In this document: in pieces, positions 5,868 to 10,245 of the stretch
How positions within the stretch are numbered: the first letter of the stretch is position 1
How the letters are laid out: each line of letters opens with the position of its first letter
NCBI GenBank assembly: GCA_013388745.1
Contig: JACAER010000050.1
Coordinates: 62,001-126,000, forward strand
Length of the DNA stretch: 64,000 nt
Reading direction: 5' to 3'
Source of the DNA: Chloroflexota bacterium
Lineage (GTDB): Bacteria > Chloroflexota > Anaerolineae > Aggregatilineales > Phototrophicaceae
The notes under the pieces: generated by a model
Told to the model about the DNA's origin: nothing
Seen by the model: the letters and a program-made list of their open reading frames with translations, nothing else
Databases searched by the model: none
Translations under genes and position numbers: made by a program

Positions 5868-5938
5868 AGGCGACGACCAGACTCGAACTGGTGATCAGAC
5901 TTTTGCAGAGTCTTGCCTTGCCACTTGGCCACGTCGCC
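5868..5938 (-). tRNA. tRNA-Cys (anticodon GCA)
   Basis: A 71-nt cloverleaf with a 7-bp acceptor stem GGCGACG/CGTCGCC and an anticodon arm GACTC-TGCAAAA-GTC giving anticodon GCA. The T-loop is TTCGAGT, and the discriminator U73 is typical of bacterial tRNA-Cys. CCA is not encoded. This is the tRNA that the cysteine leader 3 kb away would sense when it is uncharged. Confidence 0.97.
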
Positions 5939-7043: not shown

Positions 7044-8078
7044 TTATTTGCCCAATTTTTTCTTAAATTCGGCAGTCAGCGCCGGCACAATCTGGTAGAG
7101 ATCGCCCACCAGCCCGTAGCGCGCCATCTTGAAGATCGGCGATTCGGCGTCTTTGTTGATGGCCACGATCACCTTGCTGCCGCGCATCCCGGCCTGATGC
7201 TGGATCGCGCCGGAAATGCCACAGGCGATATACAGGTCAGGCGTGACGGTTTTGCCCGTCTGCCCCACCTGATGTGCGTAGGGAATATAGCCAGCGTCCA
7301 CAGCCGCGCGGCTGGCGCCCAGCGCCGCTCCCAGCACTTCGGTCAGGGGCTTGAGTACGGTGTCGAAGCCGTCTTTGGCTTTCCATACCGCGGCGGCATC
7401 CCCCGAAACGCCCGCTGGCGCGTCTTTCGGGTTGTTGGCCATGCCGCGCCCGCCGGAGACGATAATCGCCGCGTCGGTCAGGTTGACGACGCCGACTTCT
7501 TCTTCGAAGCTTTCGACTTTGCTGACAATCTGGTCTTCGCTCAGCGCCGGCGCAACGCTGCTGACCTGGGCGCTGCCGCCGCTCATGTTGGACTTAAAGG
7601 CGCGCCCGCGAATGGTGATGAACGTCGTGCCGCCGGCTATGCTGGCCGCTTCGCTCAACAGCTTGCCCGCGTACACCGGACGCACGACTTTCACCGTTTC
7701 GCCGTCCAGACTCAATTCCGTGACTTCCGAGAGCAGGCCAGAATCGGTATCTGCCGCCGACGCGGAGAGCAGTTCGCGGCCACGACTCGTACTCACCGCA
7801 AGCACGACCTTGGGCGCTTGTTCTTTCACGAGCTTGCTTAAGAGCGCGGCATAGGCTTCCAGCCGGAATTCCTTGAGTGTGGCATCATCGCACACCAGCG
7901 CCTGATTCGCGCCGTACTGCCCGGCTTCCTGCGCCACGGCGTTGGCGTTTTCGCCGAAGACCAGCGCCACCAGCGGCGTTTGCAGCCCATCGGCCAGCAT
8001 GCGCCCGGCGCCCAACGCTTCCCAACTGGTGGCGGCGGCTTTGCCTTTAAATGTTTCGACCCAGACAAACACACTCAT
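7044..8078 (-). CDS. etfA: electron transfer flavoprotein alpha subunit
   Basis: 344 residues. The alpha subunit of ETF binds the FAD that collects electrons from acyl-CoA and related dehydrogenases and passes them to ETF:quinone oxidoreductase. The C-terminal FAD domain is clear: VSGGRGM, then SRAAVDAGYIPYAHQVGQTG and PDLYIACGISGAIQHQAGM. ATGA overlap with etfB (8075-8078) indicates translational coupling and 1:1 synthesis. No dehydrogenase or bifurcation partner (fixC/fixX) is adjacent, which favours a housekeeping non-bifurcating ETF, though this is an inference. Confidence 0.97.
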   Translation of the reverse strand: MSVFVWVETFKGKAAATSWEALGAGRMLADGLQTPLVALVFGENANAVAQEAGQYGANQALVCDDATLKEFRLEAYAALLSKLVKEQAPKVVLAVSTSRGRELLSASAADTDSGLLSEVTELSLDGETVKVVRPVYAGKLLSEAASIAGGTTFITIRGRAFKSNMSGGSAQVSSVAPALSEDQIVSKVESFEEEVGVVNLTDAAIIVSGGRGMANNPKDAPAGVSGDAAAVWKAKDGFDTVLKPLTEVLGAALGASRAAVDAGYIPYAHQVGQTGKTVTPDLYIACGISGAIQHQAGMRGSKVIVAINKDAESPIFKMARYGLVGDLYQIVPALTAEFKKKLGK

Positions 8079-8854
8079 AGCACTTTTTCCTTCAACAGTT
8101 GTTCGACCAGGACGGCGGCTTGTTCTTCTGGCGTGCCGGTGATCATCATCGTCTGCACTTCACGTATGGGCAGATTCTTGTAGGCCAGCACTTTGCTGCG
8201 CGCGGCGGGAGCGCTCGCCCCCAGATCGGCCAGCGACCAGACGGGGATGACGGCCTTCGACGCCTTGCGAATCCCCATGAACGAGGGGTAGCGCGGTTCG
8301 TTGATGCCCTTCATGACGCTGATGACAGCGGGCAGTTTGCTGCTGACGATCTGCTTACCCTGTTCCAACATGCGCTCGACCTTGATGGTTTTCGCGCCAT
8401 AATCCACGGCGAGAATTTTGGAGACATAGCTGAGCATTGTCCAACCGAGTTTGCGCGCGATCTGATAGGTGTGCTGATCTGTGCCGACATCCACACTTTC
8501 TTTGCCACAGATGACCAGATCGACATCGCCCAATTTGTGGATGGCGGCGGCGGCGGCGCTGGCATAGGCTAGGCTGTCGCGTTCGTCGAGCGCCGCGTCT
8601 TCGATCCGGTAGGCCTGATCGAAACCGAGCGCCAGACTGTGCTTGAGCGCTTCGTTATGCATCTCTGGGCCGACCGCGATCACGCTGGTTTTGCCGCCCG
8701 CGTTTTTGGCCTGTAGCAGCGCTTCTTCCAGCGCGTATTCATCCCAGGGGTTGACCACCGTAGCGGCATCACCCCACGATACGCTGCCATCGCCTTTGAC
8801 TTCGACTTTGGCGGCGGTATCCGGTGTACTGCGAGTAAACACGACGACGTGCAA
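8075..8854 (-). CDS. etfB: electron transfer flavoprotein beta subunit
   Basis: 259 residues. ETF beta carries the AMP (or second FAD) site and the docking surface for dehydrogenases. Visible features are NPWDEYALEEALLQAK, the DLVICGKESVDVGTDQHTYQ segment near the nucleotide site, and the signature-like VISVMKGINEPRYPSFMGI. The start is a TTG at 8854 placed seven bases after a perfect AAGGAGG. The next ATG (residue 64) would remove conserved sequence. First gene of the etfBA operon. Confidence 0.96.
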   Translation of the reverse strand: MHVVVFTRSTPDTAAKVEVKGDGSVSWGDAATVVNPWDEYALEEALLQAKNAGGKTSVIAVGPEMHNEALKHSLALGFDQAYRIEDAALDERDSLAYASAAAAAIHKLGDVDLVICGKESVDVGTDQHTYQIARKLGWTMLSYVSKILAVDYGAKTIKVERMLEQGKQIVSSKLPAVISVMKGINEPRYPSFMGIRKASKAVIPVWSLADLGASAPAARSKVLAYKNLPIREVQTMMITGTPEEQAAVLVEQLLKEKVL

Positions 8855-9007
8855 GGGGTTTCCTCCTTAACCACATATTCTTTCGTCAGGTGACTGTTTT
8901 TATTTTAGCGTAAGCGCGGCGGAAAATCGAACCGATATTAAGTTACATTTGTCACAATCTCATGTCGCTTCTTCGCAACTTCTCATGTGTGCAGCCTGAC
9001 GCAGTGA

Positions 9008-9036
9008 TTGACAAACGGACGCGAGTACGCTACAGT
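9008..9036 (+). promoter_or_regulatory. sigma70-type promoter of the cysteine leader operon
   Basis: A perfect TTGACA at 9008-9013, a 17-nt spacer and TACAGT at 9031-9036. Transcription should start near 9043, giving a leader of about 220 nt before the cysteine synthase ATG at 9262. Confidence 0.8.
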
Positions 9037-9070
9037 ATGGACATCTGGTAGAGATGTGGTTTGTAAACCA

Positions 9071-9142
9071 ATGAACATTTTCGCCTGCTCCTGTTGTTGT
9101 TGTGACCTGAAAGTGGGGTGTCCACCGCGCTTCAGTTCGTGA
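9071..9142 (+). CDS. cysteine-rich leader peptide (attenuator ORF)
   Basis: A 23-codon ORF, MNIFACSCCCCDLKVGCPPR followed by FSS and TGA. Codon 6 is TGC, codons 8-11 are four consecutive TGT, and codon 17 is TGT: six cysteines in 23 residues, immediately upstream of a cysteine synthase gene. A small hairpin (TGGTTT-GT-AAACCA, 9057-9070) abuts the ATG, and a six-codon ORF from 9054 ends on the overlapping ATGA. There is no strong Shine-Dalgarno, only a GAGATG-like stretch. The peptide itself is probably not functional; its translation would sense charged tRNA-Cys. Polycysteine leader ORFs acting as cysteine-responsive attenuators are known in mycobacteria. Confidence 0.8.
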   Translation: MNIFACSCCCCDLKVGCPPRFSS

Positions 9143-9197
9143 CGGCTTTTAGCAGGCCAGAAGACGAGCATTTTCCAAAAGCGTGGGTACACCCCGC
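9113..9197 (+). promoter_or_regulatory. candidate antiterminator pairing of the cysteine attenuator
   Basis: GTGGGGTGT at 9113-9121 (codons 15-17 of the leader ORF) is complementary over nine positions, with one T-G wobble, to ACACCCCGC at 9189-9197. This overlaps the loop and 3' arm of the downstream terminator, so the two structures exclude each other. A ribosome stalled on the Cys codons at 9092-9103 would leave 9113-9121 free to pair. Normal passage masks it, or lets it fold locally (GTGG with CCAC at 9122-9125), and the terminator forms. The pairing was read by eye; folding energies were not computed. Confidence 0.65.
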
Positions 9198-9210
9198 GCT
9201 TTTTTGTTTT
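9179..9210 (+). terminator. intrinsic terminator inside the leader (attenuator)
   Basis: AAGCGTGGG / CCCGCGCTT form a 9-bp stem (one G-T) with a 5-nt loop, followed by TTTTTTGTTTT. It lies 37 nt after the leader-peptide stop codon and 51 nt before the cysteine synthase start. A terminator in that position only makes sense if it is conditional. Confidence 0.85.
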
Positions 9211-9261
9211 GTGGTGATTCATCAAAACGCGCGCAGGCGCGAGGACTGTAAAGAGGGACAC

Positions 9262-10245
9262 ATGGTTGCTGCGCTGAATAAGCCTGTAGAACCGCACATT
9301 TTTGAGACTTTCGAGACGGCGCACCATATCGACGCGACGACGCTCGAACGCCAGATCGGCAATACGCCGCTGCTGCGCTTCCGCAGTGTGACGGCGCATC
9401 TGCCGGAAAATGTGCGCGTGTATGCCAAAGCCGAATGGACGAATCCCGGCGGCAGCGTCAAAGACCGCGCGGCGTTGAATATCATCCGCCAGGCTGAGCG
9501 CAGCGGCGAATTAACGCCCGACAAAATCCTGGTGGACAGCACCAGCGGCAACACGGGCATCGCCTATGCCATGCTCGGCGCGGCCAAAGGCTACCGCGTG
9601 AAATTGTTCCTGCCGGCCAACGCCAGCCCGGAACGCCTTAGCATTCTGCGCGCCTATGGCACAGAACTCGTGCTGACGGATCCGTTGGAAGGCAGCGACG
9701 GCGCGATTCTGGCCGTGCGCGAACTGATAGAACGCGAGCCAGAAAGCTATTTTTACGCCAACCAGTACAACAACCCTGCTAACTGGCAGGCGCACTATGA
9801 AACGACAGGCGTCGAAATCTGGCAGCAGACGCGCGGGCAAGTGACGCATTTTGTCGCCGGGTTGGGCACCAGCGGCACGCTGATGGGCACCGGGCGGCGG
9901 CTGAAGGACTACAACGCCGCCACGCAAATCATCGCCTTGCAGCCCGATTCACCGTTTCATGGTCTGGAAGGGTTGAAGCATATGGCGACGGCCATCAAGC
10001 CTGGCATTTATGACGCCCTGCTGCCCGACGCACAGATCGCCATCAGCACGGAAGAGACGTATGGCATGGCGCGGCGGTTGGCGCGCGAAGAAGGCTATCT
10101 GGTGGGCATCAGCGCGGCCAGCGCGATGGTCGGCGCGTTAGGCGTAGCCGAAGGGCTGGCGGAACGCGGCGAGTCCGGTGTCGTCGTTACGCTGTTCCCG
10201 GACAACGCCTATAAGTATCTCAGCGAAGGCTTCTGGCGGGGATAA
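9262..10245 (+). CDS. cysteine synthase (O-acetylserine/O-phosphoserine sulfhydrylase)
   Basis: 327 residues, PLP fold type II. The PLP lysine is in EWTNPGGSVKDRAAL, the asparagine substrate loop is TSGNTGIA, and the glycine-rich phosphate loop is GLGTSGTLMGTG. The enzyme makes L-cysteine from an activated serine and sulfide. The long loop PDSPFHGLEGLKHM differs from classic CysK and recalls CysM-type enzymes, so acetylserine versus phosphoserine is unresolved. The ATG at 9262 is chosen over an open frame reaching 9118 because GAGGG precedes it and the upstream part overlaps the attenuator. The polycysteine leader independently supports a cysteine biosynthetic role. Confidence 0.94.
   Translation: MVAALNKPVEPHIFETFETAHHIDATTLERQIGNTPLLRFRSVTAHLPENVRVYAKAEWTNPGGSVKDRAALNIIRQAERSGELTPDKILVDSTSGNTGIAYAMLGAAKGYRVKLFLPANASPERLSILRAYGTELVLTDPLEGSDGAILAVRELIEREPESYFYANQYNNPANWQAHYETTGVEIWQQTRGQVTHFVAGLGTSGTLMGTGRRLKDYNAATQIIALQPDSPFHGLEGLKHMATAIKPGIYDALLPDAQIAISTEETYGMARRLAREEGYLVGISAASAMVGALGVAEGLAERGESGVVVTLFPDNAYKYLSEGFWRG

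Follow-up and report, generated by a model that had tools for sequence, protein, structure and literature searches.

A predicted cysteine attenuator built on an intrinsic terminator upstream of cysM-like genes in Anaerolineae

Introduction

Why does an intrinsic terminator lie in front of a cysteine synthase gene, and why is it preceded by a short open reading frame rich in cysteine codons? The question is raised by one locus of the window, by which we mean the whole 64,000-nucleotide stretch of Chloroflexota DNA analysed here. A preliminary description of the locus, made from the letters of the DNA, proposed a transcription attenuator in which ribosome stalling reports on charged tRNA-Cys. 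Classical ribosome-mediated transcription attenuators control the trp, his, leu and ilv operons, and in T-box leaders a shortage of charged tRNA disarms the intrinsic terminator that precedes an amino acid gene.

The classical attenuators are covered in PMC2965389, in the excerpts of which cysteine is named only in a reference and Chloroflexi are absent; in excerpts of PMC4833913, Chloroflexi appear only as one of the groups with few genomes. According to excerpts of PMC1262725, leaders with runs of Cys are predicted in Mycobacterium, Propionibacterium and Bifidobacterium, those of Mycobacterium without a conserved terminator hairpin. Mycobacterial cysteine-responsive leaders also appear in excerpts of PMC9094748, PMC9031893 and PMC13236596, which cite Canestrari et al. 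2020. The preliminary description knew of no such element in Chloroflexota, and likewise we found no description of a cysteine attenuator in this phylum among the records listed by open-access searches, most subscription papers lying outside them.

Results

Anatomy of the locus

The promoter, the 23-codon ORF with its six cysteine codons and the intrinsic terminator ahead of the gene are all present as first described (Table 1), and the terminator sits between the leader ORF and the cysM-like gene. Since the promoter ends at 9036 and the ATG stands at 9071, a 5′ UTR is predicted. The gene had been called a cysteine synthase. Its product is indeed a PLP-dependent enzyme (Pfam PALP) with cysM (TIGR01138) as its top NCBIfam model; because its 355 bits fall below the 394-bit cut-off of that curated equivalog, however, we narrow the name to CysM-like. 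The top PDB matches are cysteine synthase B, which we take to be E. coli CysM. An Rfam search of 8900-9400 returned no family at E <= 1, and the gathering-level Rfam matches in the whole window are three tRNAs only.

Table 1. Positions of the features in the window and, in the last row, in three other loci
Feature	Position	Strand	Basis or remark
Promoter TTGACA-17-TACAGT	9008..9036	+	Sole promoter-like site in 8860-9300; shuffles expect 0.2
Leader ORF, 23 codons plus TGA, MNIFACSCCCCDLKVGCPPRFSS	9071..9142	+	ORF translation; Cys-rich leaders in relatives
Cys codons 8-11 (TGT x4), proposed sensing codons	9092..9103	+	ORF translation
Extra leader Cys codons 6 and 17	9086-9088; 9119-9121	+	ORF translation
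Protector hairpin, 9096-9119 with 9124-9146, 21 bp	9096..9146	+	Predicted fold and swap test
Strand 2, antiterminator 5′ side, within ORF	9113..9132	+	18 bp with 9179-9197
Strand 3, antiterminator 3′ side; overlaps terminator 5′ arm, loop and part of 3′ arm	9179..9197	+
Intrinsic terminator, stem 9177-9187/9193-9203, then T-rich tail	9177..9207	+	-15.9 kcal/mol
cysM-like cysteine synthase gene, ATG at 9262	9262..10245	+	NCBIfam, PDB and Pfam PALP matches
etfB-like gene, divergent from cysM-like gene	8075-8854	-
DUF4395-associated attenuators in three genomes without close CysM	L154 1501-1657; L159 1501-1663; L167 474-634	+; -; +

At the cysteine frequency of the 29 long ORFs of the window (0.8%), at least six Cys in 23 codons would arise by chance with a probability of 1.7e-8. 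The bare run TGYTGYTGYTGY, a (TGY)4 pattern, nevertheless matches 256 sites in the genome (reversed control, 50), as would be expected if the ORF were a random frame across a repetitive TGT run and the terminator had no regulatory meaning. Because such runs are common, the weight rests on frame, position and conservation. With the promoter, the conservation and the coevolution described below all contradicting it, we regard a chance origin as practically negligible.

Conservation of the leader in relatives

The close set consisted of 61 genomes, the window's own and 60 relatives, and 50 of them (L001, L008-L056) have a CysM match with an identity of at least about 63%; L024 and L042, at contig ends, were left out. 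The regions upstream of the remaining 48 cysM orthologs were scanned automatically for a terminator preceded by a short ORF containing CC or C.C; 44 have both elements, compared with 7 of 48 in the antisense control. The scan missed L018, L019, L025 and L043, and L018 nonetheless has a leader, with one Cys (MYKMMLAGVCLKLGR).

In the class set, 111 of 298 genomes have a CysM match at E <= 1e-100. Of the 94 further matches, in 93 new genomes, 92 were scanned (G167 and G242 were left out); a leader and terminator were detected in 35 of these regions (antisense, 5/92) and no leader was detected in the other 57. G167, outside this count, shows a leader. Positives are concentrated in f18 (7/8, CICPGRGR), f28 (4/4), f34 (9/9, mostly CLCLxRGS or close) and f42 (10/10, e.g. 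YCRCMRRGR, L285 being doubtful), with one of one in both f60 and f1 and doubtful cases in f22 (1/8) and f24 (2/4). The class scan gave no leaders in f11, f12, f23, f27, f30, f33, f38, f40, f45, f46, f47, f48, f50, f52, f54 and f57. The small ORF and its Cys codons, for whose conservation in relatives the preliminary description had called, therefore recur in both sets well above the antisense background.

Forty-seven leaders were picked by hand after viewing the upstream regions. A strong intrinsic terminator follows 46 of them, L043 being the one without, and L043 and five near-duplicates were removed to leave 41 leaders for the tests below. A promoter match (at least 9/12) lies upstream of 40 of the 41, where 1.0 is expected. 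The pairing tests left out L009, L019 and L025, which have other leader types, and the alignment A2, of 18 sequences, left out L038 and L044. The leaders of L009, L019 and L025 upstream of cysM (MLWLRSCCTYKP, MLWLRVCRPYKR and MFSLRSCTACQHRG) have one to two Cys at the row position and a terminator downstream.

Competing helices and the position of the ribosome

In the ribosome-free fold, the window RNA is predicted to form the 21-bp protector hairpin and the terminator. With a ribosome stalled at Cys codon 10, the RNA downstream of it forms the 18-bp antiterminator and no terminator, and with the ribosome at the leader stop codon the terminator is present. The preliminary description had noted a 9-nt complement that would abolish the terminator. 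This complement is real, as GTGGGGTGT (9113-9121) pairs with ACACCCCGC (9189-9197) through eight Watson-Crick pairs and one G.U (read by eye), but it is only half of the 18-bp helix, the other half being formed by 9123 and 9125-9132 with 9179-9187; the antiterminator has twice the length first noted, and a protector hairpin is present as well. The antiterminator duplex has an energy of -32.1 kcal/mol, which none of 500 dinucleotide shuffles equals.

Folding with and without an occupying ribosome, the check suggested at the outset, was performed with an explicit footprint and the upstream RNA kept. The terminator probability was then 0.85 ribosome-free and 0.91 with the ribosome at the stop codon. 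Placing Cys codon 6, 8, 9, 10 or 11 in the A site gave 0.84, 0.81, 0.61, 0.16 and 0.29, respectively, the drop at codons 6, 8 and 9 being small under this treatment. In a second variant, which omitted all RNA 5′ of the ribosome front, the probability was 0.92 at the stop codon and 0.77, 0.14, 0.10, 0.01 and 0.11 at the same five codons. For a longer piece of the window, the minimum-energy fold is the antiterminator and the centroid is the terminator. According to the folding, the antiterminator, protector and terminator helices of the window are mutually exclusive, and the position of the ribosome decides among them.

Across the 41 leaders at equilibrium, the terminator probability averages 0.86 with the ribosome at the stop codon and 0.57 with it stalled; the effect has the expected direction in 36 and crosses 0.5 in 21. 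Folds with the upstream RNA removed show no switch in L012, L014, L020, L034, L038, L039 and L044. Before strand 4 exists, the antiterminator has a probability of 0.98 with the ribosome stalled, 0.61 with strand 2 shuffled and 0.30 with the ribosome at the stop codon, and 23 of the 41 leaders satisfy a strict rule for a switch at this stage.

Coevolution of the pairings

The antiterminator strands are out of register in A2, and for this reason a between-species swap test was used. Among the 41 non-redundant leaders, strand 2 pairs with its own strand 3 at a mean of -26.0 kcal/mol and with foreign ones at -18.9, and none of 50,000 permutations reached the own mean; the own partner has a median rank of 4 of 41 and, in the window, a rank of 2. 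The strand 3 cut had been lengthened after a first run was seen, in which strand 3 was clipped at short terminators. In that run the window ranked 41 of 41, and still 0/20,000 permutations reached the mean. The same test of the protector (strand 1 with strand 2) gave -11.5 kcal/mol for own versus -9.1 for foreign partners (0/50,000). When strand 2 was shuffled, five or fewer of 500 shuffles were as good in 24 of the 41 leaders, with none in the window, 156 in L045 and 110 in L012.

In A2, pairing over the protector, outer stem and terminator amounts to 89.9% (85.3 in shuffles), and 10 of their 21 pairs changed on both sides compared with 4.1 after shuffling (0/500). The antiterminator columns of A2 showed no clear excess, with 4 of 14 such pairs versus 3.5 and 249 of 500 shuffles as high. 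Judged from these sequence comparisons, the antiterminator and protector pairings coevolve between species. Anatomy, conservation, coevolution of the pairings and the predicted effect of ribosome position are established computationally.

These results bear on two further readings. The element might control translation or Rho-dependent termination, as has been proposed for mycobacteria (excerpts of PMC1262725 and PMC13236596), but the strong intrinsic terminators behind 46 of the 47 picked leaders, with a stem that coevolves, make this very improbable here. Equally improbable, in our opinion, is that the peptide is a working microprotein, for example a metal-binding one, and the terminator a separate matter: a short peptide with as many as seven Cys invites the idea, yet many leaders are down to one or two, and the terminator arm is complementary to the end of the ORF.

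An outer covarying stem around the terminator, with a second T run, was observed in relatives such as L015 2505-2644 (-), L021 1257-1398 (+) and L026 2656-2794 (-); none was seen in the window. In A2, the outer half of this stem is paired in all cells and the inner half in 63%, and five of its six pairs have changes on both sides. Because the antiterminator would cross the outer stem, it should block both terminators.

The end of the leader

The motif C...G[RSA] is held by 31 of the 47 leaders, 21 of which end there. A recurrent C-terminal motif is what would be expected of an arrest peptide, a nascent chain that would stall the ribosome in response to free cysteine, the redox state or a metal and so flip the same RNA switch. 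The codons of the motif, however, are part of the protector and antiterminator strands, and their changes go together with those of the terminator. The usual codons at the leader end are UGU CUG AAG NNG GGR CGY, where CUGAAG can pair with CUUCAG just 3′ of the stop codon to form the protector, and GGRCGY and the next bases pair with the 5′ arm of the terminator. The motif is absent from 16 of the 47 leaders, the window's included, and peptide length and N-terminus vary widely. In L011, L020, L022, L028 and L035 the ORF is longer and ends CUU UAG, with its stop codon within strand 2; in a third shape, that of the window and its congener L008, a longer ORF contains all of strand 2. We infer that the C-terminal end of the peptide is dictated by RNA pairing, and we consider an arrest peptide improbable, though less so than the two readings above.

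Other genes behind the element

Two covariance models of the leader, R1 and R2, were built in this analysis. R1 recovered the element of the window (E 0.084) as its sole match at E <= 0.1 in the window's genome. With strict filters and E <= 1e-4, R2 matched 17 of the 298 class genomes, the window's genome not among them, and the gene-centred scan found more leaders than R2. The R2 match in G093 (L211) was rejected for want of a Cys ORF, and the weak R1 matches in G006, G008, G017, G030 and G037 contained nothing resembling the leader. R1 matches on the opposite strand at several loci are expected because the stems are palindromic.

In the f3 genomes G038, G045 and G051, which lack a close CysM, the element precedes a gene of DUF4395, a domain of unknown function (leaders MLTIRLCTCLRRGR, MRTYRNCMCLERGR and MLTHFRCICLKRGR, respectively). 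A thioredoxin-like gene follows in G038 and G045, the two that were checked, and a fourth f3 genome, G056, has neither a close CysM nor the element. Within 400 nt upstream of 30 DUF4395 loci, a leader was found at two (G038 and G051), that of G045 having been found through R1; the 27 loci without a leader include that of the window's genome (L195). One rejected candidate upstream of DUF4395, L200, has a CC ORF unlike the leader.

In G059 (f8), the genes that come after cysM are Prok-JAB, ThiS-like, DUF4395, thioredoxin-like and ThiF/MoeB-like; by eye, G060 (f2) is similar and G047 (f6) is similar up to thioredoxin. This gene set resembles the mycobacterial Mec-CysO-CysM-MoeZ pathway. In the window's genome, a different contig, C29, carries ThiS-like, DUF4395, thioredoxin-like and ThiF-like genes, and the 400 nt preceding DUF4395 contain no Cys leader. 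In G252 and G217 (L210 and L213), the leader precedes cysK-like and cysE-like genes, identities backed by family models for G252. Folding of these additional loci gave a switch at one of two Cys codons in L159, a partial switch in L214, and none in L154, L167, L210 and L213. The genes behind the element are predicted to make cysteine or to share operons with such genes, and DUF4395 may have a role in transferring sulfur for cysteine.

Discussion

We consider it very probable that the element in the window is a ribosome-mediated transcription attenuator that would sense cysteine through the speed of translation over UGU codons. Conservation, the swap test and the ribosome folds of the window and of 36 of 41 leaders all support this reading, which is the one first proposed. 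Stalling, tRNA charging as the signal and read-through are what we infer. When cysteine is plentiful, the ribosome would reach the leader stop codon and mask strand 2, the terminator would form, and transcription would stop before cysM. When charged tRNA-Cys is scarce, the ribosome would stall in codons 8-11 and block the protector hairpin, so that strand 2 (9113-9132) would pair with strand 3 (9179-9197), the terminator would be prevented and cysM would be made. Without translation, the protector hairpin would form and the terminator would prevail.

As in the trp, his, leu and ilv attenuators, the codons of the leader ORF correspond to the amino acid made by the downstream biosynthetic gene, and protector, antiterminator and terminator helices are mutually exclusive. 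Unlike in those operons, cysteine is the amino acid concerned, strand 2 is contained in the ORF or spans its end, and many relatives have an outer stem and a second T run around the terminator. A T-box would have the same output, relief of a terminator before an amino acid gene, but the reader of the codons here would be a translating ribosome, and the Rfam T-box covariance model had no match in the window or in 16 loci.

The preliminary description also pointed to mycobacteria. The parallel holds for Cys-rich ORFs upstream of cysteine genes, cysteine-responsive in mycobacteria and predicted in other actinobacteria according to the excerpts, and for the run of Cys codons, here 8-11. It fails for the terminator, which is not conserved in the mycobacterial leaders (excerpts of PMC1262725), whereas an intrinsic terminator and a matching antiterminator are found here; we therefore regard the element as a variant and not the same device. 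The mycobacterial ORFs are, moreover, described in excerpts as leaderless, whereas here the promoter is 35 nt upstream of the ATG and a 5′ UTR is predicted. The kind of device, ribosome-mediated attenuation, is known; the cysteine version with an intrinsic terminator and antiterminator is a new variant. As modelled, it would be a classical-type attenuator for cysteine, conserved and relying on intrinsic terminators, with predicted regulation, in a phylum for which we found no record.

We narrowly favour a broader reading, in which a class-wide Anaerolineae cysteine-attenuation regulon outside Rfam would cover cysM, cysM-JAB-ThiS-DUF4395-thioredoxin, DUF4395-thioredoxin without a close CysM, and cysK-cysE. 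As part of the same reading, DUF4395 would be tied to sulfur transfer for cysteine, and in the window's family many copies would carry two nested terminators, both disarmed by a single antiterminator. Members of the Chloroflexota are largely uncultured. Because of this, and because open-access searches listed no such element there, sequence alone can name a cysteine-controlled regulon. The result is a complete, testable cysteine attenuator built on intrinsic terminators, a link of DUF4395 to cysteine synthesis by operon and leader, and covariance models that could annotate further genomes.

Outside the phylum, a poly-Cys leader followed by a terminator was observed before cysM at three of five Bacteroidota loci (L112, L123 and L129). 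An antiterminator complement is present in these three, but the terminator probability is 0.70-0.95 at every ribosome position, and because these folds do not switch we slightly lowered our confidence in the class-wide regulon. On the same broader reading, the Bacteroidota leaders, together with those known in Actinobacteria, would point to more than one origin of cysteine attenuation, overlooked until now.

A tRNA-Cys(gca) gene lies at 5868-5938 (-), 3.1 kb from the Cys leader. A conserved neighbourhood of this kind was rejected, as tRNA-Cys occurs in none of 20 stretches (7.8-9.7 kb) around cysM in relatives, and the proximity in the window is therefore probably due to chance or lineage-specific. 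The anticodon of the window tRNA-Cys is GCA. The Cys codons of the 41 leaders are TGT and TGC in a ratio of 116:18, compared with 37:87 in the 29 long ORFs of the window, and our guess is that this preference for UGU might sharpen the sensor.
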